From the NCBI RefSeq assembly GCF_025698545.1, contig NC_068566.1:40341192-40405191 (forward strand): a stretch of DNA of 64,000 bases. The letters are read 5' to 3'. The stretch comes from Gossypium raimondii. Taxonomy: Eukaryota > Streptophyta > Magnoliopsida > Malvales > Malvaceae. The notes beneath the pieces are model-generated. The model saw only the letters and a list, made by a program, of their open reading frames with translations, ran no database searches and was not told the origin of the DNA. The position numbers were made by a program, and so were the translations under genes. Below, in pieces: positions 1,775 through 64,000 of this stretch; within the stretch, counting starts at the first letter, position 1, and each line of letters opens with the position of its first letter.

Positions 1775-3746
1775 CCGATGGGGAATTCAGTGTAAGAGGG
1801 GGGATATCTGCTAGTTTTTTGGAATCCAAAAATATACAGAAGAAATTCTAAGAATACAAAGGTGAAATCGTGGTTCTGTGTTGCTGCTATTTCATTTATT
1901 TCCTGTTTTGTTGTAAAAAAATAATAAAAGAGAACAGAAAAACAGGATCTTGAATGGTCCTTTATTTTTTTTCTTTCTTTCGATTTCTTTTTTCGATTTT
2001 TTCTTTTTCTTTACTGTTTTTTTTAAAAAGGGAGGATCTTACTGCATCTGTCATGGTGTCTCCTCTCCGCCGAATCGAGTTCGGTTATGAAAGGTCAATG
2101 AGCCATGCAAGAAAAGAAAAAGATTTTTTTTAAAAAACCTAGCAGAGAGTCTTGGGTTTATTTTATTTTATTTTTCCTTTAGCTTTTGTTTGCTGCAGGT
2201 TTCAAAAAAATAAAGAAGAAAATTTGGTTTAAATAAAAGGAACAAAACGGCGCCGTTTAGGGTGGCATGACCCGCGCTTCGACCCGACCCGGAGGGGGGG
2301 AATCCGTGCGTTCTGGCCCTGAGTGGGAAAATTGCGCGTCTAGCCCTCCCCATTTTGCGATGTGTTTAATCAAGTTTTTTCCTTTAAATTCGGCCCAAAT
2401 ATTTTGCTCGCGTGACGATTTAATCCATATCAGTGCGCAGTGCTTGAGTGACTTGGGAAAATTTCTTTTTAAGTCCTCCTCTCATGGCGCGTGTATCAAT
2501 TTGGTCCTTCCTAGTGTTTTCTATTTTTAAACTTGGCCTTTTAACTTCGTTTAGCTTTCAGTTTAATCCTTAATGATCCTTTTTAAGGCTTTTTTGTAGT
2601 TTATTTTTTTAGTTTTTGTTATTATTATTATTACTATATCATTATTATATTATATAGTATTATAATTATACTTACATATATACGTATATACATTTATATT
2701 TCCATTATATTTAAATATTTTTTTCATATTTTATAATATATATATATATATATATGCATATATAGATATTGATATACACGTATTTCTTCAAAATTATTGT
2801 AAATATATTTTTTATATATATATGTACATCTATATACACATTTTCCTAATTTCTTCATATACTATTATTATTTTTGTTTTACTAAAGCATGTATACTTAT
2901 ATTTTATTTTGTAAATATATACATATCTGCATATTTTTATTTTTATTTTTACAATTTTCATTACATATATACATACATGATTTTTTAGAAATTTTAATAA
3001 TTTTTATTTTGTTATACATATCTCATTCATTATTTTATTTTTATATGTATACTTATATATACTTGTTTTAATATGTGCATATACATGTTTTCAAAATTTA
3101 TTTATGTATCATACTTATATTTTGAAAATACATATATGCATATAATTTAAAATTAAAATATTGATTTTATGTGATACATTAGCATTTTTCTACACTTTCT
3201 AAAGAAAATGTATTTTGGTTGCGTCAAAGCATTAAAATCATCATATTTTACAAATTTCCAAAATATTTGGCACTCATGATTCTCGAGAAAGATCGTGTCC
3301 TAACTTACTGGATTGCGATTATTTTTTTGATGAATTTAGAAAGCCAAGTATTTGTTTTGCAATAAATTCGCAAATTTTAAATAAAAGCTTATTCTCGGGA
3401 ATTCAAAATGTTGGGTCCTAACTTATTGGTCATGACATTTTCTTCTCGAAATAAGAATTTTCAAAAGCAAAAGGCAATATTCGGGTATTTTGAAGATTTA
3501 AAAACATTGTGCCCTAACTCACTGGGTGTGGTGTTTTATTTCTTTGAAATAAGAATGTCTTATTATTTTAAATCGTTCATGAAATAAAAAGTTTCCTTTT
3601 AAAATCTTTTCAAATTTTCGACACCAAGGCATTAAAAAAAATCAATTTGGTACCAATTTTGGGCGTTACGAGGGTGCTAATCCTTCCTCGTGCGTAACTG
3701 ACTCCCGAGCCTGTTTTCTCAAATTTCGCAGACCAAAATTATTTTA

Positions 3747-3790
3747 AAGGTGGGCCGATCACACCTTAATAAAGGATCGGTGGCGACTCC
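3747..3790 (+). other. LTR pseudoknot and second tRNA-Arg-complementary site (E1)
   Basis: On the coding strand AAGGTG (3747-3752) pairs with CACCTT, while CCGATC in its loop pairs with GATCGG (3775-3780), giving an H-type pseudoknot with AATAAA in the connecting loop. It is followed at once by TGGCGACTCC (3781-3790), identical to the first 10 nt of the primer-binding site of elements A, B and C. The same arrangement with compensatory changes occurs in the other LTRs of the window. Confidence 0.7.
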
Positions 3791-3942
3791 AGTTTTTATT
3801 TTTAAGTCGACACTAAAATTTTTGTTTTCAAAAAAACGGTTTCGACATTATATATATTTATTGTTGAAACCAACTTTTATTTTGGAAAAAAAATATAAAT
3901 TAGTTGTCGACTTTAAAAAAAAGCAAAAATTGGGAGTCGCCA

Positions 3943-3975
3943 CCAATCTTTTATTGAGGTGTGATTGGATCACCT
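3943..3975 (-). other. LTR pseudoknot (element A, 3' LTR)
   Basis: On the coding (minus) strand AGGTG/CACCT forms stem 1 and CCAATC/GATTGG stem 2, with AATAAA in the loop between. Compared with E1 both sides of stem 2 changed together (CCGATC to CCAATC, GATCGG to GATTGG). The 5' LTR copy is at 13301-13333. GGAGTCGCCA (plus strand) adjoins stem 2. Confidence 0.65.
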
Positions 3976-10585: not shown

Positions 10586-12048
10586 TCAATGTGGTTGGGG
10601 TAGTAGATTTTCTGCACTGAATGAGTCATCCAACTTGACAATACCCATGTTGATGAATTTTTCAACTAGCCTTTTGAAGGTAATGCAATTCTCTATTGAG
10701 TGCCCCGTAATTCCCGCATGGTAATCACATTGTGCGTTCGCATCATACCACTTGGAATACGGAGGTTGTGAATGTTTTAAGTAGGAAGGGGCAACAATGT
10801 GTGCATTAAACAAGTTTTGATACAGCTCCTTATACAACATTAGGATTGGTGTGAACTGGAGCTTCTCAGTACCTTGTTTCACTCCAAGTTCTTGTCTTAA
10901 TGAACCTTGCTGATTAGCAATCGATTTGCTGTACGTATTCACGCTGTTCACCTCATTTTCTCTTTCCTTTGAGGCTTGCTTTCTGTTATTTCCTCCAGCA
11001 TCAATCTTTCCTCTCCTTATGGCGCTTTAAATCTTTTCACCATTCATGACTATGTCAGAGAAGCTCTTTGTGGCACTTTCTGACATATATGTGATGAATG
11101 GGGCTTTCAATGTATTTATAAAGAGCATTGTCATTTCTCTTTCCAAGAGCGGTGGCTAAACTTGGACGACGACCTCCCTTCATCTCTGTGCGTATTGCCT
11201 AAAACTTTCACCGGGTTTTTTTCCATGTTTTGTAGAGTGATTCTATCAGGTACCATGTCGGTCACATGATTGTACTGCTTTATGAATGCCTATATTAAAT
11301 CTCTCCATGAATTAATCTTGGTACGGCTCAATTGATTGTACCACTTGGATGCTGCCCCTGTGAGGCTATCCTGGAAGCAATGTATTAGCAGTTGGTCGTT
11401 ATTGACATACCCAGTCATTCTTCTGCAAAACATGGTAACATGAGCTTCGGGGCTACTAGTTCCGCTGTACTTCTCAAACTCTGGCATTTTGAATTTGTAA
11501 GGGAGTACTAAATCAAGAACCAGACTTAATTCTTTAGCATCCATCCCATAGTAGCTCTCAGCACATTCCATCGCTCTAAATTTCTCTTTCAGTAATTTGT
11601 ACTTTTCCTCTAGCTGTTTTGGCAATTCATCATTCATTTTCTCCTTCCCAGTTGTCTCATCGAAGTCAGGGATAGTAGGATTAACAAGGTTGGCTCCGGG
11701 GTTAGAGCCTAATCCAGTATGAAAATTTATCGACATTGCAGCGCCGTCCTGAAATTGTTGAGGCTTAATGGTGACAGAGGACTTGTACGGATATATCTCA
11801 ACTTGCTGAGGGGTAACGTCTGGAGGATAGATAGGTCCCTCACTGTCTCTTTCTTTTACGTTAAGCACAGAGTTTTTTCCTTTATCAATTCCTCCAGTCA
11901 ACAACTGAGTCAACTTAGCAATCATATTCCCCTGGGATTCCATCATTTTATCCATAATTTTTTGTTGAATCTTCTCAAGCTGCTTATTCATTTGTTGTTG
12001 AAGCTGATCTTGCATTTCTTTTTGGAACTGTTCTAGCCTTTGGTCCAT
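10586..12048 (-). pseudogene. gag: Gag ORF of element A, broken
   Basis: The ATG at 12048 opens a Gln-rich coiled-coil N-terminus (MDQRLEQFQKEMQDQLQQQM), a linker rich in Pro and acidic residues, then a retrotransposon gag domain with KFKMPEFEKYSG, MFCRRMTGYV and CFQDSLTGAASKWYNQL (about residues 185-245). The frame stops after SWRDLI. Downstream, legible but shifted and stopped, are MVPDRITLQ, FSDIVMNGEKI and finally a readable piece (10586-10951) with KWYDANAQCDYHAGITGHS and ENCITFKRLVEKFI, the end-of-gag motif. Protease should follow but is deleted. It matches the gag of B in domain order with clearly different sequence. Confidence 0.8.
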
Positions 12049-13199
12049 GTCTTTAGTTTTTGATCGAGTACCGTAACAGTGTTTGGCGAGTTGGTCGGTT
12101 TTCAGATTAACTGAGGAATGATTTTAATCGATTAGGCTCTTTTAATATTTTTTAAATTCATATGAAGCAATGCAATACAATGCATGAATGCAAAAAAAAA
12201 AAAACGTTGATTCTGATTCAATTACATTTAGAAAACTTTACTAGAAGGCAAATTTCTTTACATAAAGCAGATGCATGTACAGCCTTGCCTTTATATTCCA
12301 AGAGACAACATCGATCTTTTTCTTCATCCGCCCGTTTAAGATAAATCCCACAAATTTCCAATAGATGACACTGCTAGCTCTCTTTTTCTTGATGCTGGTC
12401 ACGATCCATCGTTTACCTATCCTCGTAATGCTCATCAGCTTCTTTAAGGGAATTGGAACGTCGAAAGCTCTTAGACAATCATCTTAAATCCTTGGGCCAC
12501 GAAGTAAAGTCACAAACTTCTTCATTACCCTTCTTTTGTTGTGTTTCTTGGAATATATTCGAGCAGTCGTATTTCTTCCACTTTATCAAGAAACCCTTTT
12601 TCCATGATAAGCTTTCTATCTAGTAACTGAATATGAACCGACGCCTTTTATAATGAAATGAAATGCCATGCCATGCAATCAAAATAAAACACTAAAAGTC
12701 AGTATCATAGAATATAATCAAGAAATAATAAAAACACCTAATAGGATGTCTACTAGGGTTCAGTGTAGCTCTACCTAGGGTGGATTCCTAAGGTTCATTA
12801 TATGAGGTTTGGCTTCTAGAGCAAGGGTACCCGAACTAGCAGATTCCTCAATCCTCACCCATTATAGGCTCATATGGACCGAGTTCAGCTCAGGGGAATA
12901 CATTTCCCTATGGCTGCACGGAGATGAAAATCTTACGAAGACATAGGTACGGATGTATCCCGGAAGCGGTCCACTACCCTGCACGGAGGTGAAAACCTCA
13001 CGAAGGACTAGTTTCTCGCTCCCACTTAAAAGGGTAAAATTATTCAACTCATGTAATGTGTAATGCAAACAATATTTAAATCCATTAAGTAAGAAATAAT
13101 GAATGCAACAGGATACCATGAATTTTTTTAAAAACAAAATTTTCTCGACGATAAGACAAGAATTAATCAACTTTGTGGCTCGACTCTCTTATAAAAAAA
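12049..13199 (-). other. 5' leader of element A
   Basis: Non-coding region between primer-binding site and gag. ORF1, present before gag in B, is not legible here. It contains the duplicated stem-loop at 12898-13008: core CGGAGATGAAAATCTTACGA and a second copy CGGAGGTGAAAACCTCACGA 64 bp later. Confidence 0.6.
12898..13008 (-). other. Duplicated leader stem-loop (element A)
   Basis: Copy 1 is closed by ATACAT/ATGTAT and CCTATG/CATAGG around the core AGATGAAAATCT; copy 2 by GTCC/GGAC around GAGGTGAAAACCTC. B and C carry the same pair with different stems (52523-52646 and 62562-62683). Confidence 0.5.
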
Positions 13200-13217
13200 T
13201 CCCCAGTGGAGTCGCCA
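13200..13217 (-). other. Primer-binding site of element A (tRNA-Arg)
   Basis: The minus strand reads TGGCGACTCCACTGGGGA three bases inside the 5' LTR. It is complementary to the 3' end of a plant tRNA-Arg whose acceptor stem is GACTCC/GGAGTC, as I recall the ACG/TCG isoacceptors. Tat/Ogre elements are known to use tRNA-Arg. Confidence 0.7.
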
Positions 13218-13220
13218 AGC

Positions 13221-15182
13221 TGTCGAAACCAACTTTTATTTTGGAAAAAAAACAAAAATTAGTTGTCGACTTAAAAAAAAGCAAAAATTGGGAGTCGCCA
13301 CCAATCTTTTATTGTGGTGTGATTGGATCACCTAAACAATAGATTTGGTCTACGAGTTTTAGAAAAATGGATTCGAGAGTCGATTACGTACGAGGAAGGA
13401 TTAGCACCCTCGTAATGCCCAAAATTGGTACCTAGTTAATTAATTAGTGTCTTAATGTCGAAAATTTAAAAATATGATCCTTAATAAAAACTAAAAACGT
13501 TACTTATTAAGACTCTTATCATTTCAGAGAAAGAAAATGTCACACCCAATGCGTTAGGGCACGACATTCTATTTCCTCAAAAATGATTTAGTCCAAAATA
13601 CTCTTATAATAAAAATTTAAAAGAATATCAATTTATTTAAGATTTAAGAAATCGCAGCCCAATACGTTAGGGCACAATTTCTCAAAATCCTAAACTTGAA
13701 ATATTTCCTTTGTTATCATTTTTAAAAAAAATATTTGTCTCGAGAAATCAATACGTCACATCCAATACGTTAGGATACAACATATTAAATTCCCGACAAC
13801 AAGCTTTTCATCTTATTTTTTGATTAATGAGCAACTCTCGATTGTTAGATTTAACGAAGAAAATTGGAACCCAATACGTTAGGGCTCAATTTCCTTGAAA
13901 ATCCTAAATACGAGTATTATCTCAATTTTGAAAATTTTTGAATAAAATGATTTTGATGCTTGAATGATATCGAACATAGCCTTTTAAGCGAATAGAATGC
14001 GATAAATGATAATATACAACATGGAGCGATAATTCGTAAATAAAACATACACTAATGAATGATAAATAATAAATGAATTTGAAAGAAAATACATAAACCT
14101 ATTTAAGAGAGAGTTTAAAGGTAATAGATAAAATAATATGAAATCAATAATATATAGAATAAAAATAATTTATTACAAATTATATATGTATATATAAAAT
14201 AGTATTGTATAAAAATATTTTCATATAAATCTTTAAGACATATAAATATGTAAAGTGAATTTCAAAATATATTACAAAATAGGGATATCAAAGAATATAT
14301 ACAAATCATGTTGAATTTACCTAAAATATAAAAAGTGTGATAAATCAAATAATAGCAATATATATTGAATTTCAAAATAATGATACATTATAATTTTTTA
14401 AAAGGGTAATATATACATATAATTTAATAAACTTATAGCCATAATACATATAAAACGTAAAATAAAATGGAAAATACTAAGCTTAATCATTAAAATAGTA
14501 TTAGATTAAAATTAAATATATTTAAAAAAAATAGTGGTGTAAGAAATCAAGCACATTGAATTAACAAGGATTTAAATTGAACTCCAAACAGAATTAAAGG
14601 GAAAAAAAATGAAGGGCCCAATTAAAAGGCGCGAATAACTCATAGGGCTCGAATGGGAAAATATCTCCATCCTTTGAAACGCGTCACTTTATTAGGGCTA
14701 AAAAAATAAATAAAATGCGCAATGGTATCACCTTCTCCCTTTTTTAAAATCGTAAATAAGTAAAAAAAAAAACAGTAAGCCACCTTTAAAAGACTGCCAA
14801 TCGTTCTCCCCTTTTTTTCTGATTTTTTTTCCTGGTGAAGGGAGAGGCCTCTATTTATAGTTGAGCCTCCCCAAATCCAACGGTACAGATCAATTACATC
14901 AACGGCTAAGATTAAAGGGTATCTACAAATTAAATCTCTAATATTACAAAATCATATCTTCCAAGATTGCATATCATATCCAAGATTGCATATATCATAT
15001 CTAAGATTGCATATCATATCTAAGATTGCATATCCTTGAAGATTATGTTTCCATAAGCTTGTAGATGGACCTTCAACCTTTTTAAGTAATGCGCCATTCC
15101 GATCAGGCCAAATGATATAATTTTGTATTGGACTTAGACTTTATTTTATTATTGTGAGCCCTGGCTAAAATTGGGTATTACA
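13221..15182 (-). repeat. 5' LTR of element A
   Basis: TGTCGAAACC to GGGTATTACA on the plus strand, followed by the duplication TTTAT. Contains the TATA box at 14852-14859, the pseudoknot at 13301-13333 and the second hairpin at 13389-13414 (TACGAGG/CCTCGTA). Confidence 0.9.
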
Positions 15183-23514: not shown

Positions 23515-23589
23515 CCCTTTGTCGAAACCGTTTTTTGAAAACAAAAAATTTAGTTGTCGACTTTTTAAAACAAAAAACTGGAGTCGCCA

Positions 23590-23623
23590 CCGATCTTTTA
23601 TTAAGGTGTGACCGGCCCACCTT
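23590..23623 (-). other. LTR pseudoknot (E2)
   Basis: Coding strand: AAGGTG/CACCTT for stem 1, and CCGGTC paired with GATCGG for stem 2 with one G-U pair in RNA; AATAAA lies in the loop. GGAGTCGCCA (plus strand) adjoins. Confidence 0.6.
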
Positions 23624-32303: not shown

Positions 32304-33233
32304 TGTTGACACCAATTTTTTTTAAAAACAGGGTCGACTTGGATTTTGAAAATGAAAACGAAAATGAGAGTGGCCACCAATCCTTTTTTATAAGGTGTGA
32401 TCGGGTCACCTTAAAAAGTGGTTGTTTTTAATAAATAATTTAATTTTATTAAAGCAACGATTTTGGTCCACGAAATTCAAAAAAAGGGTTCGGGAGTCGG
32501 TTACGTACGAGGAAGGATTAGCACCCTCGTAACGCCCAAAATTGGTACCCAGTTGATTAATTAGTGTCTTAGCATCGAAGATTAAAAACTTTAAAGAGAT
32601 TTGAAAATACGATCCTTGTATTAAAAACTTGTATAAATCAAATTACATGTTAAGACCCTCTCATTTCGGAGAGAGAAAATGTCATACCTAACGAGTTAGG
32701 ACATGTTATTTCACATCCTCAAAAATGAGCTTGTCCTTTAAAAATCTCATGCAATAAAATTCAAAAGCATATTCAATTTTTTAAGTCGGATGAACAAAAT
32801 CGCAGCCCAATACGTTAGGGCACAATTTCTCAGAATTCTAAACATTGAATATTGCCTTTATTATTTTTTAGAAAAATCCTCATTTCGAGAAAACAACGTG
32901 TCATATCCAATGCGTTAGGACACAACGTATTGAATTCTCGATAATGAGCTTTTTATTTTTTTTTATTAAAGAGCATTCTCGATTATTTAGATACAATGAA
33001 AAAAATTGGAACCCAATACGTTAGGGCTCAATCATTTCGAATCTAAACACAAAATTTTACTTATTCAAAAATCATAATTTATGCATCAAATAAAATTAAT
33101 CTAACACGAAATAGTAGAAATAAAACACGATGTTAATATGCGTAATAAAACCATAATAAATATGATGATGTAAGCATAAATAATATAAGCGACCACAACA
33201 GAACAATAAATAAATAAATAAATAAAAGATGTC
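32304..33233 (-). mobile_element. Partial LTR of Tat-type element D, split by element C
   Basis: Starts TGTTGACACC directly after LINE sequence. It carries the family signature on the plus strand: GTCGACTTGG-like start region, AGTGGCCACCAATCC, AAGGTG...CACCTT, TCGGGAGTCGGTTACGTACG, and subrepeats with CCCAATACGTTAGGG cores (near 32809 and 33012). Pseudoknot at 32377-32412 and second hairpin at 32506-32531. It stops at 33233 where element C begins; the rest is presumably beyond 64000. The 5 bp before it are GTGCT. Confidence 0.75.
32377..32412 (-). other. LTR pseudoknot (element D)
   Basis: Coding strand: AAGGTG/CACCTT for stem 1, CCGATC paired with GATTGG for stem 2, one G-U pair in RNA. The adjoining tRNA-like match is degraded (TGGCCACTC). 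Confidence 0.5.
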
Positions 33234-35980
33234 TGTAGCGACCTAAAAATTTGGCGATAGGCGCTAGTCGAAATGATTATTGAAAAATTAAAAACAAAGT
33301 TTCAAATTTTATTTACAAAAGAGGAGTCGCCACCGATCTTTTTTTCTAGGTTTAGAAGAAAAATTTATTTTTAAATTTTCCTAAAAAAGAGGTAATTTTA
33401 GGTCTGCGTGAAAATCTAGAGAAAATTAGGGTTCGGGAGTCGGTTACGCGCGAGGAAGGTATTAGCACCCTCGCGACGCCCAAAATTGGTATCTCGTTAA
33501 ACGCATATTGTCTTAATTTTCAAAATACAAGTTCAACTTAATATTTAATCATAATCCGATTGAAATATGAGACTTTAAAAAAACACGAGAATTTTGAAGC
33601 ACAAATTTAAAAAAAAAACGAAATTTTTGAAACACGAAAATTTTAAAAACATGAAAAACTTTTTTTAACTTTTTTTATTTTAAATACGGAATTTTTGAAA
33701 TACGAGAATATTAGGAACACGAAAATAATTTTTTTGAGAACACGAAAATTATTTGAAAAAACGTGAAAAGTCGAGAAATTTGTAAACACGATAAAATTTG
33801 GAAAACACGAAATTTTTGAAGAAAGTGAAAGGTCGAAATTTTTTTTTAACACGAGAAATTTTTGAAAACACGAAAATTTGAAATACGGAATTTTTTAAAA
33901 AACATGAATATATTTTTAAAAACACAACGATTTTTGAAATACGAGAAATTTATTATTTTTAGAAGAACACAGATATATTTTTTGAAATACGGGAAATATT
34001 ACTATTATTTTTGAAATGCGAGAATTTTTGAAAACATAGAAATTTTTGAAACACGAAAATTTTGAAAACACGACAATTTTCGAAATACGAGAAGATTTTT
34101 TTAACACAAAAATTTTAAAACACTAACATTTGTAAAACACGAAAACTCTTGAAAATGCTAAAAGTCGAAAATTTTGAAATACGAGTAATATTTGAAAATA
34201 CGAAAATTTGGAACACGAATTTTTTTTTAAAAACGTACCGTATTTAACACGAAACTATGATATTCACCCCTACATGGCGATGAAATCATCGAATTAGTGT
34301 TAAATCGATCCAATTTGATATTTAATCGGGATTCTAATAAAACACGAGAATTTTTATTAAACACGAAAATTTTTGAAACACAATTTTTTTTAAGAAGTAC
34401 CGTATTTAACACGAATCAATGATATTCATCCTTACATGGCGATGAAATCATCGAATTAGTGCCAAATCGATTCAACTTAATATGTAATCGTGATTTTATT
34501 AAAACATGAGAGTTAAAAAAAACTTTTTTTTTAAAAGGGCGTATTGTGTTTAACACAAACCGATGATATTCACCCAACATAGCGATGAAATCAACGATTT
34601 AATGTTAAATCGATTCTTTGTCATATTTATTGAAATTGATTAAAATAAAATAAAATAAATAATATAAATACGAAAAAGAGAAATATATATATATATATAT
34701 AAATGCATAAAAATACTAATAACATTAAAACGAAATACCATAAAAATATATGCATTAAATTAAAAATGAAATAAACGAAATTACCGAAAAGATCCAAAAC
34801 ACGAGCTTGGTCGAACGAGTTACGCAAATTGAACCATTTTTCCTTCTTTTTTTTTCTTTTTTCCTTTCTCTTTTTTTTCTGCTGGGCTGGCTTGTTGGGC
34901 TGCCTGCTGTTGGGCCTGCGCAGGAATAGGCCTACTGGACTGCTGGCAGATTGGGCCTAGACTGGCTGCTTGCTGGGTTGCTGGAATTGGGCCTACTGTT
35001 GACCTGCTAAAAAATGGCCTGCTTTCTTTTTTTTCTGTTTTTGTTTTTTTTCTCTTTTTTTGGGTTGGCCTACTACTGCTGGGCCTGCTGGGCTACTGGG
35101 TCGGGCGCGGGTCGTCGGTCCGGGCCGGAATCGGGTCTTGTCAGACCCGGGTCGGGTCGGGTCGACCCGACTATTCAAAAAATATTTTTTATTTATTTTT
35201 TCTTTTTTCTCTTTTTCTTTCTTCTTCTTCTTCCTTTCCTTCTCTTTTTTCTTCTTCTTCTCCGTTCGGCCTTCCTCTTCCTCTGCTTTTGCCGACGGTG
35301 ACCTGCTGCCCAGCGACGGCCGGCGGTGGCGCACACGGTGGTCTCCTCTTCCCTTCTTTTCTTCTTTTTTCTCTTTTATTTTTGTTTGTTGCTTGCTTCT
35401 TGCTCTTTTTATTTTTGCTTCTTGGTTGTTGTTTCCTTTGCTAGGTGCCGGCGATGGGGGTGCTGTGGAGGTGGGCACGGTGGGGCTGGTGCTATGGCCG
35501 GCGGTGTGCTGTTATTATTATTTTTTTTTTCTCTCAAAAAATTTTGCTTTTTTTTTTCTTGCTTTTCTTCTCCCATTTTCTTCTTTGCTTTGGGGGTTTT
35601 AAAACCCATTTTATTTTGATGTTCTCTTCTTTTTTTGCAGGTTGCAGGTGGGCTAGGGAGGGCTAGGCCGGCCGCCACCTGTTGCAGGTGCAGCTTGCGT
35701 AGGTGGCTGCCAGAGGGACCAAAATGTAATGGCAGCAAAACTTTTGGGGCCAAAACATAATTTTAAGAAAGTTTAGGGGTCAAAATGTAATTTTAAAAAG
35801 TTTAGGGGTCAAAAGGTAATTTAAAAAATTTTAGGGGTTGAACTATAATTTTGAGAAAGTTTAGTGGTCAAAATGCAATTTTAGAAAAGTTTAGAGGTCA
35901 AAATGCAAAAAAAATATTTTTTTTTTAATTTTAATTTTTTTTTAATGAAAGTTATCCCCGGACAAAATTCAGTGATTACA
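33234..35980 (-). repeat. 3' LTR of element C
   Basis: TGTAGCGACC to AGTGATTACA. Holds about 700 bp of degenerate short repeats of the type GAAATTTTTGAAACACG (33590-34240), three copies of a roughly 155-bp unit with GTATTTAACACGAA (34236, 34394 and 34541), TGGGCTGCTG-rich DNA, and pyrimidine-rich DNA (35020-35640). Relative to its 5' partner it lacks about 30 bp after 33350, including the pseudoknot stem. Confidence 0.88.
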
Positions 35981-36589: not shown

Positions 36590-39458
36590 TATAGCGACCT
36601 AAAAATTTTGAGTACGGGCGCTAATTGAAGTGATTATTGAAAATTTAAATAATTAAAGAAAAAATTTTAAATTTTGAGTACGGGCGCTAATTGAAGAGAA
36701 TTTTGAGTACGGGCGCTAATTCGTGTTTCCTAATTGAAGTGATTTTATTTGAAAAGGAGTCGCCACCGATCTTTTTTTCTAGGTGTGATCGGACACCTAA
36801 TAAATTCTCTTTTTAGAAGAAAAATTTTATTTCTTAAATTTTCCTAAAAAAGAGGTAATTTTAGGTCTGCGTGAAAATCCAGAGAAAATTAGGGTTCGGG
36901 AGTCGGTTACGCGCGAGGAAGGTATTAGCACCCTCGCGACGCCCAAATTGGTATCTTGTTAAACGCGCGTTGTCTTCATTTTCAAAAATACGAGTTCAAT
37001 TTAATATTAGTCCTGATCCGATTAAAGCACGAGAATTTTAAAGCACAACAACTTTTTCTTTTCTTTTTTTTGAAAACAGAAATTTTTTTTTAAATACAAG
37101 CATTTTAGAAACACAAAACTCTTTTAAAAAACGAAAATTTAGAAACACGAGATTTTTTAGGAAACACGAATTTTCTTTTTGAAACACGAAAATTTTTAAA
37201 ACACAAATTTTTTTTTTGAAAACATAATATTTTTGATAAAATACGAAACAGGAGGATTTTTTTTTTGAAACACAAAAATTTATGAAACAGGGTCAATTTT
37301 TTTGAAAACACGAAAATTTTTGAAAGACGAGATTTTTTTGAAAACATGGAAATTTATGAAACACGGAATTTTTTTGAAGACAAGAAAATTTTCGAAATAC
37401 GGGACTTTTGGAAACAAGGAAATTTTTTTTTGAAACCACGACAATTTTTGAAACATTGGAATTTTGAAAATACGAAGATTTTTGAAACGCGAAAATTTTT
37501 TTAAAACACGGAAACATGAAAATTTGTCAAACACGGGATTTTTTCTTGAAAACACGATAACATCAAAAAATATTCGCGAAAGTTTTTTTTTTGAAACACG
37601 AGAAATTATTTTTTTGAAAACACGAAAACACGAACATTTTTCAAACAAGGGAATTTTTGAAAACACGAAAATTTTTTTTTGAAAAGAAACACGAATATAT
37701 ATTTTTGAAACACGAGAAATTTTATTATTATTATTTTGAAACACGAGAAATTTTGAAGACATGAAAATTTTTGAAACACGATTTTTTTTAAAAAATACCG
37801 TATTTAACACGAATCGATGATATTCACCCCGACATGGCGATGAAATCATCGAATTAATGTCAAACCGATTCAATTTAATATTTAATCGGGATTCTAATAA
37901 AACACGAGAATTTTTATTAAAATACGAGGAATTTCGAATATTTTTGATTGTTAGAAGGTCGTCCCGTATTTAACACGAGCCATCGATATTCACCCAACAT
38001 AGCGGTGAAATCAACGGCTCAATGCTAAACCGGCTCGTTGCCTTACGCATTAAAATATATATTTTTATTTTAAACATGCAAATAAAATAACATAATAATA
38101 TTTCTAAAAAAACTATTAAAAAATGCTAATTTAAATAAAATACCATTTAAATAAATTAAATAAATTAAAATGGATTTTAAAAAAAAGATTACCCAAAGCC
38201 CAAAGTTGTGGGCTTGAAGGACAGGCCTTTTCTTTTTTTTGCTTTGAATTGGGCCTTAGTGGGCTTGGGCTGCTGGAACTATTGGGCTGCTGTATGGGTG
38301 GCTTGCTGGAGCTGCTGGGCGTTGGGCTGGGCAGTGGCCTGTTGGGCAGTGGCCTGCTGCTGTTGGGCTGAACCTGCTGGACTGGAGCTGTTGAAATGGG
38401 CCGAATCTGCTGAACTGCTGCGCTAGGCCTGCTGCTGGACTGGAGTTGCACGGGTGGGCTACTGCTGGTGGGCTGCTGCTGGTGGACTGCTGCTGGACTG
38501 CCAAAAATGGGCTGCTGTTTTTTTATTTATTTTATTTATTTCTTTTTCCTTTTCCTATCTTTCTTTTCTTCTTTTCTTTCTTCTTTACTGTTTGGGCTGC
38601 TGTTTTCTTTCTCTTTTTACTTGCTGTTTTTTTGTTTTCTTTTTTTGCTTGCTTGTGTAGGTGCGACGGGGGTGGGAATGCAAGGGCGCGGTGGTGAGCA
38701 CGGTGGTGGCGAAGGAGCGGCCGGATTTTTGAAGTTGTTCTTTCGTTTTTTTCTTCTTTTTCTTTTGCTGCTACTTTTTTGCTTTGCTTTCCTTTTTGAT
38801 TGATTGCGGCTTTTCAGGTGGTGACGGTGACGGTGGTGGTGCGGCGGTGGTGATGGCTTTTTACTTACTGCTGTTTTTATTTTTTTGAGTTTTCTCTGCT
38901 TCTTTTTTTTTTTGGGGTTCCTCCCCGAAAAATCCCCTTCTTTCTCTAATATTCCTCTTTTTAAATCCATCAATTTTTGTTTCTTTCTCTTTGTTTTCAG
39001 GTGGCAGAGGAGGAGGGAGGCCATGCATTGGGGTGGCAGGCGTGGCGAGCGGGGCACGCAAGAATGCTAGTTGGGGGCAGTCTTGTCATGCCCAGAAGGA
39101 CTAAATTGTAACGGGTGCAAAGTTTCTGGGGCAAAAATGCAATTTTAGGAAAATATGGGGCTACAATGTAATTTTTAGAAAGTTTAGGGGTTAAAGTGTA
39201 ATTTTGAGAAAGTTAGAGGTTGAAATGTAATTTAGAAAAGTTTAGGGGTTGAAATGTAATTTATATTTTTTGTTTTGTTTTTTTTTTCATTTTTCAAAAT
39301 TTCATTATGACTATTTTATTAATATTTAAAACAAAAATTAAAACAATTAAAAATGAGTTAAAACAAACCCAAAATTTAATCCTAATGGGCCCAATCATCG
39401 GGCCCATATGAGACCAGCCCGGCCCGAAATCCTACCCGGGCAAAATTAAGTGATTACA
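36590..39458 (-). repeat. 3' LTR of element B
   Basis: Highly similar to 52975-55760. The terminal TG is TA here (TATAGCGACC). A local rearrangement (about 36605-36740) repeats TTTTGAGTACGGGCGCTAAT three times where the 5' LTR has one copy. Contains the pseudoknot (36766-36798), the second hairpin CGCGAGG/CCTCGCG (36912-36938), the GAAATTTTTGAAACACG short-repeat field (37020-37790) and TGGGCTGCTG-rich DNA (38260-38520). Confidence 0.9.
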
Positions 39459-49955: not shown

Positions 49956-52013
49956 TTACACAAACTTCTTAGCCACATCGCCTTGCTTCTTTATACGTTC
50001 CAGGAACTCCGATATGCTTGATCTTTGGCTTGGAGGGTATTGGCAACTGAGAACTTCCGCTTCATCTGACAAATGTACTACATGCGCAGCCGCCCTACGA
50101 ATTTCATTGATCAAACTGCCGATATGCATATCCTTTTCTTGGAGGGCTCTTTCATAGGCGCGAACATCTCTGTCATGCTGACCATTCTTCTCTTCTAAAG
50201 CTCTCAAGAGGTCATCCAAATGTTGCTGATGAGCTTGCAGTGTACTTTCTAGACTTCAAATTTTTCCTTTTAGCTCTTGATGCTCAAACTGACTAGCCGT
50301 TAGTTCTGCAGTCACAATTTCGTATTCAACGTTCTTCTTCCTCAACTCTATCATAGTACGTGTAGCTTTTTCTTCTTCTTTCTTTGCCTTGGCTTTCCAG
50401 AATTCCATCCCACCTTTGATATTGCTTAATTCCTCCTTCCATTCTGCTGATGCTTTGCCCAATCCACTATTTCTTATAGTGCCCCTTAATTTCTTGTTTT
50501 CCAAATGAAGGTCCCTTAAATCCTTTCTCGTAATTTCAACTTCTTTTTGGACTTTTTCAGTTCTGGATTTTTCAATTTCGACATCAATCTTCAGCTGGTA
50601 GTTCTCCTCCTGGAGAGAACTAATATCTCGCAACAGTTTGGCTTTTTCACGTTCAAATTCATGTTTTGCAATTTCTAGCTCGAATGGGATTTTCTCTAAG
50701 AACGGCTTTTGGCAAGCTTCATTAATCGATGGGGTTACTTGACTCTTCACTCGTTGTTGCCTCCATAGGTCATAGTCTACAGTGATAGTATCAGCATAGA
50801 GAGCTAATTCCATTAGGTAGATTTGCCTCCAAGAATTCGCAGTATCTCGAACCTTTTTCATGTAACCCTCACCCATAAAGGCAAACTCCGATTGTGCCAA
50901 TCTATCGGTAATTGGTACAAACTGTCGCGAAGCGAACTATCTTTGAACCAACAATGGAGCATATCCAACTCCTCCCCATAATCCTAGTAAAGGCACCCAG
51001 TCTAGGTTTCCACACTTGTATAATAAGACAGAGGGACGAATCCAAGGTGCTCTCCAAGTTATATCTTCGACACGGAGGTTCTGAAAAACCGAGACCTAAT
51101 GTTGTTCAGTGACATCCTTCGGCCAATCTTTTTCAAGGTGTGCTTCCAACGGGGCGAATGTCTTTGAAAACATGTGGAAAGACGTGCGCTCCACATTCTA
51201 AAAATGGCTAAAGATCCAAACATTCAGTAACTGAGCACATCCGATAAAACGTCCTTCCCCTTTTCTCCTACAAGCATTTAGAGATCTAAAAGTCTCAGCC
51301 AAGATGGTTGGGACCGGGTTGACTCTTTGCCTCAGCTTTTCGAAGAAATCCACAACCGCAACTTTAATATGCCCAAGAACCTTCGGGAAGACGACCAGTC
51401 CGTAAACGGCCAAGGCAAACAAATCCACTCTTTTTAACATATCTGGATGATTCTGAACTAACTCCCGCAGAGAAAACCACGGGACACAACTGATTTCATT
51501 CTTTTTCTTTATTTGTTTTTCAGCCCATGTATCAGTCATCCCCGTCAACTTCATTAGCTTTTTCTTGAACGTCATTGGTTTAGGCTCCTTCACATATATC
51601 TTGTTGAGTTGCACATTATCGATGCGAAGCAAAGCAGCATACTCTTCTATGGTCGGAGTCATATCTTCCTGATTGAAAGTGAAACAATGATAGGCTGGGT
51701 CCCAGAATCGAACCATGGCTTGGATCAACTGCTCGTTCACATCGATTGCTATCAAGTGAGCTATATCCCCATACTTTTCAGTGAAGATGCTTCTAGTATC
51801 TGAGTCACACTGCTTCCAAATCCTAGTCAAGTCTTCGAGATCATTCTGACGAGCATTCAAAGTCACACGCTCGGGAAGATCAGAGGCGTATCCTTCTTTC
51901 AAACTGTCCCCTTTCACTTTTTGAGTTCTCAAAGACCAATCTCGGACTACAACATTTTTCTCAGTTACTCGTGTAATTGACTCCTCCATCAGAAACCCGT
52001 TTTTGGCAACCAA
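49956..52013 (-). pseudogene. ORF1 upstream of gag in element B
   Basis: One 686-codon frame from the ATG at 52013 with four in-frame stops (51198-51200, two between there and 50901, and about 50253). The N-terminal two thirds resemble the plant family I recall as DUF7745 or plant-mobile-domain-like (WSLRTQKVKGDSLKEGYASD, MTPTIEEYAALLRI, VPWFSLRELV, GLVVFPKVLGHI). The C-terminal third is a long charged coiled coil (EIAKHEFEREKAKLLRDISS onward) ending in IKKQGDVAKKFV. Ogre-type elements are known for an ORF1 of unknown function before gag. Three of the stops are explained by TGG, CAG or CGA becoming stop. Confidence 0.8.
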
Positions 52014-52954
52014 TATTTAACCAACACCTTCCTAATGAGATGTCTACGATACATGATGAAAAATAAGATGAAAAACAAATAACCTTGGTTAGAGACCACA
52101 ACAGATATAAACAAAAGAAAAATGAAAAATAAAGACTATGGAAAATTTAACAAATTAAGCTATTCAATCATGCAATTTGGTGGAACAGACCCACATTTTT
52201 TTTGCCCCAACATGCTTTACAAGAAACCTACCCCACATACCATCAGACCATCTATCCGACCCAATTTATTAAACAGACTCAATTCATTTGCAAATAAGAA
52301 ATAAAAGGTAAGAGGCGTTTCTCCCGTGTTTTTATTTTGGTAACTATCAAACGGACAGAGGTTCGGCATGGCTCTAATTGGATGGCTCGTACGGTTCACT
52401 ACATGTGGTTCTGGTTCTAGAAAAGCACTCGAATTGTCCATACTGTCACCTACTAAGGTAAGTACGGAGCCTCGATTATCGCCCGTCATGGGCTTGCGAG
52501 TTCAATTGGAGGGATTACATTTACTTATGCCTATGCGGAGGGACGAGTTAACTCACGAAAGCATAAGTCATATGTAACCCGGAAGTATTTTCACTAGCTT
52601 TGTCGGGAGGGACGAGTTAACTCACGAAGGCGTGGCGTTTACTTCCACTTAAGCAGACGGAGCCGGGTAGAGAGCTCATGTTATGCAAGAATGCAAGTGC
52701 ACGGTGTGTGGGGAGAAACTCACAAACCTTTTTATTTTTATTTTTACTAAAAAAACAAACTAAAACCATAAAACTTAAAGCTGAAAAAAAAACGCGAAAA
52801 TAAAATAGGTTAGAAAAATATTAATTTCAAAACCGGATGCGGTTGCATGATTTTTCAAAACAAAATTCAAGGATCACGATTAAAAATTAAATTGAACAAG
52901 AAGTTTTAAAAATTTTGACAACACGTGTTTAACACCAGACTCGACTCTCAAAAG
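52014..52954 (-). other. 5' leader of element B
   Basis: Non-coding DNA from primer-binding site to ORF1, well conserved with 62040-62997 in C. It holds the duplicated stem-loop at 52523-52646. Confidence 0.6.
52523..52646 (-). other. Duplicated leader stem-loop (element B)
   Basis: Copy 1 is closed by ACTTATGC/GCATAAGT, copy 2 by GGAAGTA/TACTTCC. Both contain GGAGGGACGAGTTAACTCAC with the GAGTTAACTC palindrome and GAAGG/GAAAG after it. Element C has the same pair at 62562-62683. Confidence 0.55.
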
Positions 52955-52972
52955 TCCCCAGTGGAGTCGCCA
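52955..52972 (-). other. Primer-binding site of element B (tRNA-Arg)
   Basis: Minus strand TGGCGACTCCACTGGGGA, two bases inside the 5' LTR; complementary to the 3' end of tRNA-Arg as for A and C. Confidence 0.7.
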
Positions 52973-52974
52973 GC

Positions 52975-55760
52975 TGTAGCGACCTAAAAATTTTGAGTAC
53001 GGGCGCTAATTGAAGTGATTATTGAAAATTTGAAAACAATGTCTCGATTTTATTTGAAAAGGAGTCGCCACCGATCTTTTTTTCTAGGTGTGATCGGACA
53101 CCTAATAAATTCTCTTTTTAGAAGAAAAAAATTATTTTTAAATTTTCCTAAAAAAGAGGTAATTTTAGGTCTGCGTGAAAATCCAGAGAAAATTAGGGTT
53201 CGGGAGTCGGTTACGCGCGAGAAAGGTATTAGCACCCTCGCGACGCCCAAAATTGGTATCTCATTAAACGCGCGTTGTCTCCATTTTCAAAAATACGAGT
53301 TCAATTTAATATTAGTCGTGATCCGATTAAAGCACGAGAATTTTAAACCACAACAACTTTTTCTTTTTTTTTTTCGAAAACAGAAAATTTTTTTTAAAAT
53401 ACAAGCATTTTAGAAACACAAAACTCTTTTAAAAAACGAAAATTTTGAAACACGAGATTTTTTAGGAAACACGAATTTTCTTTTTGAAACAGGAAAATTT
53501 TTAAAACACAATTTTTTTTGAAAACATAATATTTTTGATAAAATACGAAACACGAGGATTTTTTTTGAAACACGAAAATTTATGAAACACGGTCAATTTT
53601 TTTGAAAACACGAAAATTTTTGAAAGACGAGATTTTTTTGAAAACACGGAAATTTATGAAACACAGAATTTTTTTGAAGACAAGAAAAGTTTCGAAATAC
53701 GGGACTTTTGAAAACAAGGAAATTTTTTTTTGAAAACACGACAATTTTTGAAACACTGGAATTTTGAAAATACGAAGATTTTTGAAACGCGAAATTTTTT
53801 TTTAAACACGGAAACATGAAAATTTGTCAAACACGGGATTTTTTCTTGAAAACACGATAACATCAAAAAATATTCGCGAAAGTTTTTTTTTGAAACACGA
53901 GAAATTGTTTTTTTGAAAACACGAAAACACGAACATTTTTCAAACAAGGGAATTTTTGAAAACACGGAAATTTTTTTTTTGAAAAGAAACACGAATATAT
54001 ATTTTTGAAACACGGGAAATTTTATTATTATTATTTTGAAACACGAGAAATTTTGAAGACATGAAAATTTTTGAAACACGATTTTTTTTAAAAAATACCG
54101 TATTTAACACGAATCGATGATATTCACCCCGACATGGCGAGGAAATCATCGAATTAGTGTCAAACCGATTCAATTTAATATTTAATCGGGATTCTAATAA
54201 AACTCGAGAATTTTTATTAAAATACGAGGAATTTCGAATATTTTCGATTGTTAGAAGGGCGTCCCGTATTTAACACGAGCCATCGATATTCACCCAACAT
54301 AGCGGTGAAATCAACGGCTCGATGCTAAACCGGCTCGTTGCCTTACGCATTAAAATATATATATTTATTTTAAACATGCAAATAAAATAACATAATAATA
54401 TTTCTAAAAAAACTATTAAAAAATGCTAATTTAAATAAAATACCATTTAAATAAATTAAATAAATTAAAATGGATTTTAAAAAAAAGATTACCCAAAGCC
54501 CAAAGTTGTAGGCTTGAAGGACAGGCATTTTCTTTTTTTTTTTGCTTTGAATTGGGCCTTAGTGGGCTTGGGCTGCTGGAACTATTGGGCTGCTGTATGG
54601 GTGGCTTGCTGGAGCTGCTGGGCGTTGGGCTGGGCAGTGGCCTGTTGGGCAGTGGCCTGCTGCTGTTGGGCTGAACCTGCTGGACTGGAGCTGTTGAAAT
54701 GGGCCGAATCTGCTGAACTGCTGCGCTAGGCCTGCTGCTGGACTGGAGCTGCACGGGTGGGCTACTGCTGGTGGGCTGCTGCTGGTGGACTGCTGCTGGA
54801 CTGCCAAAAATGGGCTGCTGTTTTTTTATTTATTTTATTTATTTATTTTTCCTTTTCCTATCTTTCTTTTCTTCTTTTCTTTCTTCTTTACTGTTTGGGC
54901 TGCTGTTTTCTTTCTCTTTTTACTTGCTGTTTTTTTGTTTTCTTTTTTTGCTTGCTTGTGTAGGTGCGACCGGGGTGGGAATGCAAGGGCGCGGCGGTGA
55001 GCACGGTGGTGGCGAAGGAGCGGCCGGATTTTTGAAGTTGTTCTTTCGTTTTTTTCTTCTTCTTTTTTTGCTGCTACTTTTTTGCTTTGCTTTCCTTTTT
55101 GATTGATTGCGGCTTTTCAGGTGGTGATGGTGACGGTGGTGGTGCGGCGGTGGTGATGGCTTTTTACTTACTGCTGTTTTTATTTTTTTTTGAGTTTTCT
55201 CTGCTTCTTTTTTTTTGGGTTCCTCCCCGAAAAATCCCCTTCTTTCTCTCATATTCCTCTTTTTAAATCCATCAATTTTTGTTTCTTTCTCTTTGTTTTC
55301 AGGTGGCAAAGGATGAGGGAGGCCATGCATTGGGGTGGCAGGCGTGGCGAGCGGGGCACGCAAGAATGCTGGTTGGGGGCAGTCTTGTCATGCCCAGAAG
55401 GACTAAATTGTAACGGGTGCAAAGTTTCCGGGGTAAAAATGCAATTTTTGGAAAATATGGGGCTACAATGTAATTTTTAGAAAGTTTAGGGGTCAAAGTG
55501 TAATTTTGAGAAAGTTAGGGGTGGAAATGTAATTTAGAAAAGTTCAGGGGTTGAAATGTAATTTATATTTTTTGTTTTGTTTTTTTTTTCATTTTTCAAA
55601 ATTTCATTATGACTATTTTATTAATATTTAAAACAAAAATTAAAACAATTAAAAATGAGTTAAAACAAACCCAAAATTTAATTCTAATGGGCCCAATCAT
55701 CGGGCCCATATGAGACCAGCCCAGCCCGAAATCCTACCCGGGCAAAATTCAGTGATTACA
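52975..55760 (-). repeat. 5' LTR of element B
   Basis: TGTAGCGACC to AGTGATTACA. Contains the secondary tRNA-Arg match (53061-53070), pseudoknot (53071-53103), short-repeat field GAAATTTTTGAAACACG (53330-54100), TGGGCTGCTG-rich DNA (54550-54810) and three pyrimidine-tract-AG-GTG sites on the plus strand (near 54962, 55120 and 55302). In coding sense transcription should start near the 55760 end; no clear TATA box was found. Confidence 0.9.
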
Positions 55761-56935
55761 CTCGCAATATGAGTTGATTTTTTTTTCAAAAGCAGAAATT
55801 GAAAATACCTCAGGATGTGACCCGAGGCTCAACTCACCTCTCGCAATATGAGTTGATTTTTTTGTTTTGAAAAAACATAAATTGAAAATGCCTCAGCGTA
55901 ACCCGAGGCTCAACTCACCTCTAGCAATATGAGTTGATTTTAAAAAAAGACATAAATTAAAAATACCTCAGCGTGACCCGAGGCTCAACTCACCTCTGTA
56001 TTATGAGTTGATTTTTTTTAAAAAAAAGACATGAATTAAAAATACCTCAGCGTGACCCGAGGCTCAACTCACCTCTGTATTATGAGTTGATTTTTGAAAA
56101 AGCGAAATTTAAAAAATACCTCAGGCGTGACCCGAGGCTCAACTCACCTCAGATTATGAGTTGATTTTTGAAAAAAGCAAAATTAAAAAAATACCTCAGT
56201 GACCCGAGGCTCAACTCACCTCAGATTATGAGTTGATTTTTGAAAAATCAGAAATTAAAAAATACCTCAACGTGACCCGAGGCTCAACTCACCTCAGTAT
56301 TATGAGTTGATTTTTGAAAAACTAAAATTAAATTAAAAATACCTCGGCGTGACTGAGGCTCAACTCACCTCATTATGAGTTGATTTTTAAAAAAAGTGAA
56401 ATTTAAAAATACCTCAGGCGTGACTCGAGGCTCAACTCACATCTCATTATGAGTTGATTTTTGAAAAAAGAAATTAAAAAAATACCTCAGCGTGACCCGA
56501 GGCTCAACTCACCTCTGTATTATGAGTTGATTTTTTGAAAAAATCAGAAATTAAAAAAATACCTCAACGTGACCCGAGGCTCAACTCACATCTGTATTAT
56601 GAGTTGATTTTTTGAAAAAACTAAAATTAAATTAAAAAAATACCTCAGCGTGACCCGAGGCTCAACTCACCTCTGTATTATGAGTTGATTTTTTAAAAAA
56701 AGCTGAAATTTAAAAAATACCTCAGCGTGACTCGAGGCTCAACTCACATCTGTATTATGAGTTGATTTTTTGAAAAAAAGAAATTAAAAAAATACCTCAG
56801 CGTGACCCGAGGCTCAACTTACCTCTGTATTATGAGTTGATTTTTTGAAAAAACAGAAATTAAATTAAAAAAATACCTCAGCGTGACCCGAGGCTCAACT
56901 CACCTCTGTATTATGAGTTGATTTTTTGAAAAAAA
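55761..56935 (-). repeat. Hairpin-bearing tandem array of element C, part 2
   Basis: Sixteen units of about 75 bp (TGAGTTGATT from 55770 to 56912). Starts with CTCGC, the right target duplication of element B, and continues the array cut at 36589. Units are more homogeneous than in part 1, with CCTCAGCGTGACCCGAGG dominating. Confidence 0.88.
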
Positions 56936-57861
56936 ACACAATTTTAAAAATATTTCTTGAAAGAAACAGGGTTTCAAAAAAACATCAGGTGAAACTAAAA
57001 GCCTTCTTCATCATTGATTCTGTGCAGCTTTCTCCTAGTATTCCTTGCTCTACTGGTATACCTGTATATGTCATGTATGATGTTATTACGATATGCACAT
57101 GTTTGTCCTAAATGCTTTTGTGTCTATATGATCATGCAATGCACCGTGAGCTATTTGTCACGTGCCCCACTTTTGATTTTTGTGAGGGTACGCATTCATT
57201 TCCTCAATTCTTGACTTTTCTCTCTAATTTTGTACTCATCCTCAAGTTCTGTGAGTAATCCACATTTCTTCGTATATCGCCTTCCTGCCCCCTTGTTGAA
57301 ATTTGTTATTGCTTCAGGGTCCTTGTATTTATCAAATTCTCATCCAGGTAATGCTCAACATTCCTTTTGTTTAGAGTATGTCATCTTACTATTTATCATT
57401 TAAATGAATCAAACACGAGATGCATGAAAAATGGCAAAGTAGGTATGAAAGAAAGACCTCACATTCATTTTTTCAAAAGCAACAAACAAAGAAAATTGCC
57501 AAGGAAAAATTCCAATAAAAAAACATCATAAAGAAAAGAAAGCGAATTCAATGGCCACAAATGTTCTAGATATCCAATGCATGAACTTTCCACGTTTCTT
57601 CATCCTGGATCTTTTCGAGCACGGCTTCTTGTGTAGAAGATTTTGAGCTTCTGAGAATGCTTCAAATATTGTAACCTCACCATTCGACTCCCTGTTCAAG
57701 CCAATTGGCTTCTTCAAGCCCGAGCCCACTTCATTAGGACGCCCTTTTGGGTTTTCATCCTAATCCTTTTGTTTATCAAGACGCCCTTTTCGGGTTTTCA
57801 TCTTGATTTTTCTTTTTCTTTTTTTTGTTTTTGTTTTTTTTGTTTTTTTTGTCCCTTTTTT
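56936..57861 (-). other. 3' UTR of element C with hairpin pair
   Basis: Matches 40171-41107 of B. The hairpins are at 57733-57764 (ATTAGGACG/CATCCTAAT) and 57775-57807 (ATCAAGACG/CATCTTGAT), about 55 nt after the pol stop. Confidence 0.6.
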
Positions 57862-62997: not shown

Positions 62998-63015
62998 TCC
63001 CCAGCGGAGTCGCCA
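62998..63015 (-). other. Primer-binding site of element C (tRNA-Arg)
   Basis: Minus strand TGGCGACTCCGCTGGGGA, two bases inside the 5' LTR. It is the exact complement of the 3' end of plant tRNA-Arg(ACG) as I recall it. Confidence 0.75.
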
Positions 63016-63017
63016 GC

Positions 63018-64000
63018 TGTAGCGACCTAAAAATTTGGCGATAGGCGCTAGTTGAAACGATTATTGAAAAATTAAAAACAAAGTTTCAAATTTTATTTAC
63101 AAAAGAGGAGTCGCCATCGATCTTTTTTTCTAGGTGTGATCGGACACCTAATAAATTCTCTTTTTAGAAGAAAAATTTATTTTTAAATTTTCCTAAAAAA
63201 GAGGTAATTTTAGGTCTGCGTGAAAATCTAGAGAAAATTAGGGTTCGGGAGTCGGTTACGCGCGAGGAAGGTATTAGCACCCTCGCGACGCCCAAAATTG
63301 GTATCTCGTTAAACGCATATTGTCTTAATTTTCAAAATACAAGTTCAACTTAATATTTAATCATAATCCGATTGAAATATGAGACTTTAAAAAAACACGA
63401 GAATTTTGAAGCACAAATTAAAAAAAAAACGAAATTTTTGAAACACGAAAATTTTAAAAACATGGAAAACTTTTTTTAACTTTTTTATTTTAAATACGGA
63501 ATTTTTGAAATACGAGAATATTAGGAACACGAAAATAATTTTTTTGAGAACACAAAAATTATTTGAAAAAACGTGAAAAGTCGAGAAATTTGTAAACACG
63601 ATAAAATTTGGAAAACACGAAATTTTTGAAGAAAGTGAAAGGTCGAAATATTTTTTAACACGAAAAATTTTTGAAAACACGAAAATTTGAAATACGGAAA
63701 TTTTTAAAAAAAACACGAATATATTTTTAAAAACACGACGATTTTTGAAATACGAGAAATTTATTATTTTTAGAAGAACACAGATATATTTTTTGAAATA
63801 CGGGAAATATTACTATTAGTTTTTGAAATGCGAGAATTTTTAAAAACATGAAAATTTTTGAAACACGAAAATTTTGAAAACACGACAATTTTTGAAATAG
63901 GAGAAGATTTTTTTAACACAAAAATTTTAAAACACTAACATTTGTAAAACACGAAAACTCTTGAAAATGCTAAAAGTCGAAAATTTTGAAATACGAGTAA
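63018..64000 (-). repeat. 5' LTR of element C, cut by the window edge
   Basis: TGTAGCGACC...TTGGCGATAGGCGC as in 33234-35980, with the pseudoknot (63117-63149) that the 3' LTR has lost, the hairpin CGCGAGG/CCTCGCG (63261-63287) and the start of the short-repeat field. Confidence 0.88.

Follow-up and report, generated by a model that had tools for sequence, protein, structure and literature searches.

The window analysed here is a 64-kb stretch of Gossypium raimondii DNA. Positions 3747–3790 (+) hold a layout that can pair as an H-type pseudoknot and closes with TGGCGACTCC, a 10-nt copy of the start of the PBS carried by related elements of the window. The layout and its further copies are distributed as follows.

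3747–3780 (+): H-type pseudoknot layout of lineage E1, the copy given, read from sequence pairing
3747–3752 and 3762–3767 (+): E1 stem 1, AAGGTG with CACCTT
3755–3760 and 3775–3780 (+): E1 stem 2, CCGATC with GATCGG
3753–3754 (+): E1 loop L1 (2 nt); the A at 3761 stays unpaired between the stems
3768–3774 (+): E1 long loop L3, AATAAAG, with AATAAA inside
3781–3790 (+): TGGCGACTCC, the copy of the PBS start, at zero gap 3′ of E1 stem 2
3943–3975 (−): pseudoknot of lineage A (CCAATC/GATTGG) at an LTR end that no PBS follows; PBS copy at 3933–3942
13301–13333 (−): pseudoknot of lineage A in a 5′ LTR, one stem-1 mismatch (CACCA); PBS copy at 13291–13300
13200–13217 (−): PBS of the lineage A element, 18 nt complementary to the tRNA-Arg(ACG) 3′ end plus CCA
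23590–23623 (−): pseudoknot of lineage E2 (CCGGTC/GATCGG, one G-U); PBS copy at 23580–23589
32377–32412 (−): pseudoknot of lineage D (CCGATC/GATTGG, one G-U); PBS copy decayed to TGGCCACTCT
33323–33332 (−): PBS copy at a B-type LTR end, pseudoknot 5′ half lost
36766–36798 (−): pseudoknot of lineage B (Ogre-type); PBS copy at 36756–36765
53071–53103 (−): pseudoknot of lineage B in a 5′ LTR; PBS copy at 53061–53070
52955–52972 (−): PBS of this lineage B element; GAGAGTC comes next
63117–63149 (−): pseudoknot of lineage B in a 5′ LTR, outermost stem-2 pair lost; PBS copy at 63107–63116
62998–63015 (−): PBS of this lineage B element

On re-reading the sequence, we found every pseudoknot copy listed in the earlier note in its place; the one at 13301–13333 is present, but its stem 1 is imperfect. 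The B-type LTR end at 33332 (−), represented by its 3′ part only, was absent from that list, and the junction of stem 2 with TGGCGACTCC was absent from that reading of the motif. The E1 LTR itself seems to end near 3847, at CGACA, 57 nt past the PBS copy. Within the window no Rfam family exceeded its gathering score and ARAGORN found no tRNA gene.

Two other features of the window were observed in passing. A hairpin-like conserved block, GTTACGAGG...CCTC..GTAAC, lies at 3664–3699 (+), 48 nt upstream of the E1 knot, and parses at like positions in 124 of the 161 LTRs sampled below; one of its pairs reads C-G 94 times, C-A 13, T-A 8, T-G 7 and otherwise 2, with no wobble bias. Eight repeat copies occupy 55781–56952, five successive spacings being 75–81 bp and two larger.

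Few plant retrotransposons are as large or as abundant as Ogre/Tat elements. The host elements of the motif share with these LTR retrotransposons a tRNA-Arg PBS, as judged by comparing the PBS with tRNA-Arg genes. A domain scan covering lineages A and B found RVT_1, RT_RNaseH, RVT_3 (presumably an extra RNase H domain) and Integrase_H2C2 in two of the six ORF pieces scanned, in a lineage B element. The plant mobile domain (PMD) and DUF7745 occur in ORF piece 51198–52016 (−) of lineage B, about 1 kb after the PBS; a passage of PMC6317226 reports a plant mobile domain ORF in 57% of Ogre elements. The lineage A ORF piece 11290–12123 matched no family in the same scan.

Anatomy, prevalence and conservation of the motif

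The true PBS reads TGGCGACTCC(A/G)CTGGGGA and follows the LTR end. It is the complement of the tRNA-Arg(ACG) gene 3′ end plus CCA, using tRNA genes from the same genome: all 11 matches to the tRNA-Arg pattern read CCCCAG(T/C)GGAGTCG, and ARAGORN places a tRNA-Arg at 10 of these 11 loci. TGGCGACTCC equals the first 10 nt of the PBS in the three window elements (13217, 52972 and 63015, − strand), and the LTR thus contains a copy of the start of the primer site that follows it.

How widely this arrangement occurs was assessed on 5′ LTRs chosen by exact PBS alone, a key that matched 616 and 1154 sites. The sample (n = 161) comprises 158 PBS sites taken in listing order from contigs C1–C3 and the three window elements; since it is keyed on the tRNA-Arg PBS, knot-bearing elements with another PBS fall outside it by design. 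LTRs were parsed by likeness to AGGTG, CACCT and CCGATC, pairing not being scored, and 158 of the 161 yielded the H-type layout together with the PBS copy. The three that did not parse look like cases of local deletion: one (L133) has neither knot nor copy, one (L149) keeps the knot and has lost the copy, and one (L164) carries a deletion in the knot. A strict core pattern matched 5278 times genome-wide, against 0 for the reversed-pattern control. The pseudoknot motif is therefore real and widespread, and the single layout that the earlier note had seen in five LTR lineages recurs across all lineages encountered here. Among 20 elements with the PBS TGGCGCCGTTGCCGGGGA, which we take to be of tRNA-Asp type, none showed the knot (fixed pattern, about 240 nt upstream) and none had an upstream copy of either PBS start with up to 2 mismatches.

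The geometry is that of a classical H-type pseudoknot, as had been proposed, with L1 of 1–2 nt and a long loop of 4–13 nt; a single unpaired A separates the stems in 152/158 LTRs, and 69% of the long loop is A. The two-stem pattern, in which the stem-1 loop pairs downstream, has its pairing potential largely complete. Stem 2 is complete in 128/158 LTRs and stem 1 at 5/5 in 117/158; the four core stem-1 pairs are intact in 141/158, and this core and stem 2 are both whole in 116/158. Overall, 96.5% of stem-2 cells and 93.9% of stem-1 cells are paired, values that fall to 17–66% (partner slid by 1–3 nt) and 21–60%, respectively, when the register is moved. ViennaRNA, scoring the stems singly in 10 copies with the knot outside the tool's scoring, returned negative energies of −0.3 to −8.5 kcal/mol.

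With no intervening nucleotide, the last strand of stem 2 passes into TGGCGACTCC, intact or decayed. This zero-gap junction is the shared feature, while L1, L3 and the spacing to the PBS differ between LTRs. The copy starts 44–154 nt (median 75) upstream of the true PBS in the 158 parsed LTRs and is exact in 107 of them. Several of its letters are nearly invariant. C-to-T changes at its positions 7 and 9 would preserve pairing with the tRNA as U-G, yet each was counted only once, compared with 15 events at position 4 and 14 at position 10, as though another constraint acted on the precise sequence. A GAGTC follows within 40 nt 3′ of the PBS in 55 of 63 elements with downstream sequence, where shuffles expect 1.4; it could pair with GACTC in the PBS, in the PBS copy or in the tRNA 5′ end. 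The window has an instance at 52943–52949 (−), past a lineage B PBS. Four 7–8-nt complements of the PBS copy, sought up to 1.5 kb after the PBS, were found at 0 of 60 loci.

Conservation was gauged by comparing nine lineage B (Ogre-type) rows with 25 randomly drawn others. Identity is 0.77 in the knot (shuffled baseline 0.47) and 0.92 in the PBS copy, 0.47 in the rest of U5 (shuffled baseline 0.45) and 0.49 in the 60 nt upstream, the shuffled baselines covering U5 and the knot only. Knot and PBS copy are thus kept, whereas the remainder of U5 is about as dissimilar as shuffled sequence.

Outside cotton, 15 PBS matches turned up in genome contigs, one of which (L176) resembles plant DNA. This 4160-base contig is filed under an assembly of Solirubrobacter sp. 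CPCC 204708, and its positions 2900–3700 are probably contamination by a plant Tat-type LTR end. It combines a related LTR end with an exact GGTGGCGACTCC, the PBS copy standing 283 nt before the same PBS. Its candidate stem-2 complement does not exceed chance expectation (15% of shuffles contain one), leaving no convincing knot, and a block similar to the hairpin-like one described above was noticed in it by eye. An exact copy without a convincing knot suggests that the PBS copy may predate the knot or be better conserved. The PBS pattern had 0 matches in viral contigs; a search for viral relatives by two knot patterns gave 27 matches, which we read as chance, 24 of them with a GC content of 0.49–0.71.

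Sequence change in the two stems

The earlier note described the stems as covarying. At stem-2 pair 3 the 161 LTRs show GC 73, AT 51, GT 34 and AC 3 times, many rows sharing descent; in the first 100 strict-pattern places listed, for which a PBS was not required, a tally by eye gives GC 36, AT 37, GT 26 and AC 1. Changes were counted on an event tree built without the motif, in which 103 of 155 inner branches are open, and because the tree is so poorly resolved the event counts are soft. By parsimony, AT at pair 3 was gained 11 times (5 from GC, 6 from GT), while strongly supported branches force only 2–3 changes at this pair.

Since the two arms are reverse complements, neutral transitions making G-U and those making A-C are expected to be about equally frequent. 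Stem 2 departs from this, with 49 G-U-making against 19 A-C-making events (p 4e-4), an excess that points to the sense RNA as the structured strand. The inner pairs 3–5, picked after the counts were known, account for 28 vs 2 and the outer pairs 1, 2 and 6 for 21 vs 17. At pair 4 the bias falls on the 5′ arm and at pair 5 on the 3′ arm, and it therefore does not reflect one conserved arm. Flank transitions show some asymmetry (353 C to T vs 225 G to A; 208 A to G vs 225 T to C); with the C-to-T/G-to-A asymmetry allowed for, pair 3 alone gives p 0.01.

Stem 1 behaves otherwise: its core is nearly invariant, its events (15 G-U vs 14 A-C) carry no wobble bias, it had no double change to a standard pair, and its outer pair in lineage D (40 rows) gives a Fisher p of 0.23. 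Covariation tests on these 161 LTRs of one genome had a divided outcome. A tree-based dependence test gives an LRT of 25.3, with 1 of 57 other columns slightly above the true partner. An all-pairs R-scape-like scan ranked lineage-diagnostic columns highest, some of them beyond its null, and placed no stem pair in its top 30; in the alignment used for it, the 9 B rows are one base out of register in the region of stem 1 and L1. What stands of the covariation claim is that stem 2 changes in the manner of an RNA helix. We regard the knot topology as plausible rather than proven, given that no stem pair reached the scan's top 30 and that stem 1 gave no signal; with stem 1 free of wobble bias, a plain stem-2 hairpin would also fit.

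Candidate roles next to the PBS

We tentatively hypothesize that the motif is a cis-acting RNA element near the LTR 3′ end (in U5, possibly at the R/U5 border) which would handle, capture or block the primer tRNA. In the genomic RNA, knot and copy would precede the true PBS by the 44–154 nt (median 75) given above. The tRNA-Arg 3′ end (GGAGUCG plus CCA) could pair with the PBS copy, and the resulting helix would stack end-on upon stem 2, so that the primer 3′ end would meet a closed pseudoknot. The tRNA might then be captured and left unextended at the copy until its transfer to the full 18-nt PBS; alternatively, the knot might prevent mispriming at the half-site. We prefer capture or blocking because the zero-gap junction is the shared feature and would make the primer 3′ end face a closed template. 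A more specific version, in which a second, half-length primer-tRNA site in U5 would park or proofread tRNA-Arg, loading it but keeping it unextendable until it is handed to the PBS, is conceivable but doubtful.

Several other explanations deserve weighing, and they are partly compatible with primer capture or blocking rather than fully exclusive of it. The earlier note had put 3′ end choice among the possible roles: the knot would mask or present the loop AAUAAA, so that 3′ end formation bypasses the 5′ LTR and takes place in the 3′ LTR. Retroviral poly(A) hairpins are a model for such control, and a T-rich stretch after the PBS copy would suit a cleavage site. AATAAA lies inside the long loop in 87/158 LTRs, including 56/78 E/other and 30/31 A rows (group A being partly defined by its loop, groups D and B set without regard to it). 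The proposed loop signal therefore holds for the given E1 copy and for most E/other and A rows, but fails in D (1/40) and B (0/9), where AATAAA is mostly found 60–79 nt upstream of the PBS copy (35/40 D, 7/9 B) or is absent while knot and copy persist. Because of these two groups a poly(A) switch is unlikely as a shared role, and 3′ end choice is not supported as the common function. It also leaves the PBS copy unexplained, and a search for poly(A)-ended retrocopies that would place the RNA 3′ end (PBS copy followed by 14 A within 25 nt) found none. A U5 element handling the primer is the reading we prefer over such a switch.

Somewhat less probable, in our judgement, is a conserved sequence bound by protein as DNA or RNA, or a hairpin formed by stem 2 alone around a CACCU-A-rich loop, in either case with no pseudoknot formed. 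The nearly fixed stem-1 core and PBS-copy letters, the lack of a structural signal in stem 1 and the negative all-pairs scan agree with it. A DNA site predicts no excess of G-U over A-C, a single conserved arm does not match a bias seen on both arms, and the four core stem-1 pairs, complete in 141/158 LTRs, argue against doing without the pseudoknot. We consider it quite improbable that the motif is an RNA export, packaging or dimer signal lying near the PBS by chance, in the manner of the MusD transport element: pseudoknot-bearing structured elements are described for MusD and Ty1 RNA in passages of PMC3362945, PMC12786077 and PMC4974528, but this would leave the exact 10-nt copy of the PBS, set at zero gap, without explanation. 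Shared descent only, with the motif a fossil of an older PBS and its neighbouring sequence under recent common ancestry, is strongly disfavoured. Row-level covariation is indeed largely lineage-shared, but B and the other rows still resemble each other in knot and copy, whereas elsewhere in U5 their identity is down to the level of shuffled sequence, and an exact copy is present in a contig seemingly from another plant (L176).

Likeness to known systems

Frameshift pseudoknots of the MMTV type combine a short first loop with a lone unpaired A at the stem junction and a long loop rich in A. The cotton knot resembles them in geometry and differs in being non-coding, with no frameshift role suggested. 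The additional tRNA-complementary segments of Ty3 match other tRNA regions, whereas in cotton the same tRNA acceptor/CCA end is matched twice.

According to passages of PMC4974528 and PMC11181671, primer contacts beyond the PBS have precedents in Ty3 and HIV-1, and Ty1 has a pseudoknot close to its PBS. Ty3, as treated in part of PMC4974528, has a bipartite PBS: the primer tRNA also finds a complement away from the main site, which has been suggested to link the two RNA ends and is comparable to the cotton copy; the extra Ty3 segments sit in the 3′ UTR, the cotton copy in the LTR. The HIV-1 primer activation signal, in the account excerpted from PMC11181671, likewise lets the leader pair with the primer tRNA besides the PBS, but it contacts another part of the tRNA, while the cotton U5 site repeats the PBS and adjoins a putative pseudoknot. 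A likeness in position, a pseudoknot in the RNA leader of an LTR retroelement near the PBS, is that of Ty1, whose pairing is described in the same part of PMC4974528 as needed for an efficient start of reverse transcription. The Ty1 knot is long-range, pairing the 5′ end of R with a segment beyond the PBS; the cotton one is compact (about 34 nt), lies wholly within the LTR and is joined to a PBS copy.

Among the open-licence matches listed, none described a U5 pseudoknot, a PBS copy or a primer-site RNA structure in Tat/Ogre elements. The finding suggests a hitherto undescribed RNA part that would handle the tRNA from which copying starts in these elements. Knot and copy together offer a sequence marker for Ogre/Tat LTR ends, and the combination of a structure with a repeated primer site would provide a concrete, testable handle on how reverse transcription of plant elements begins.
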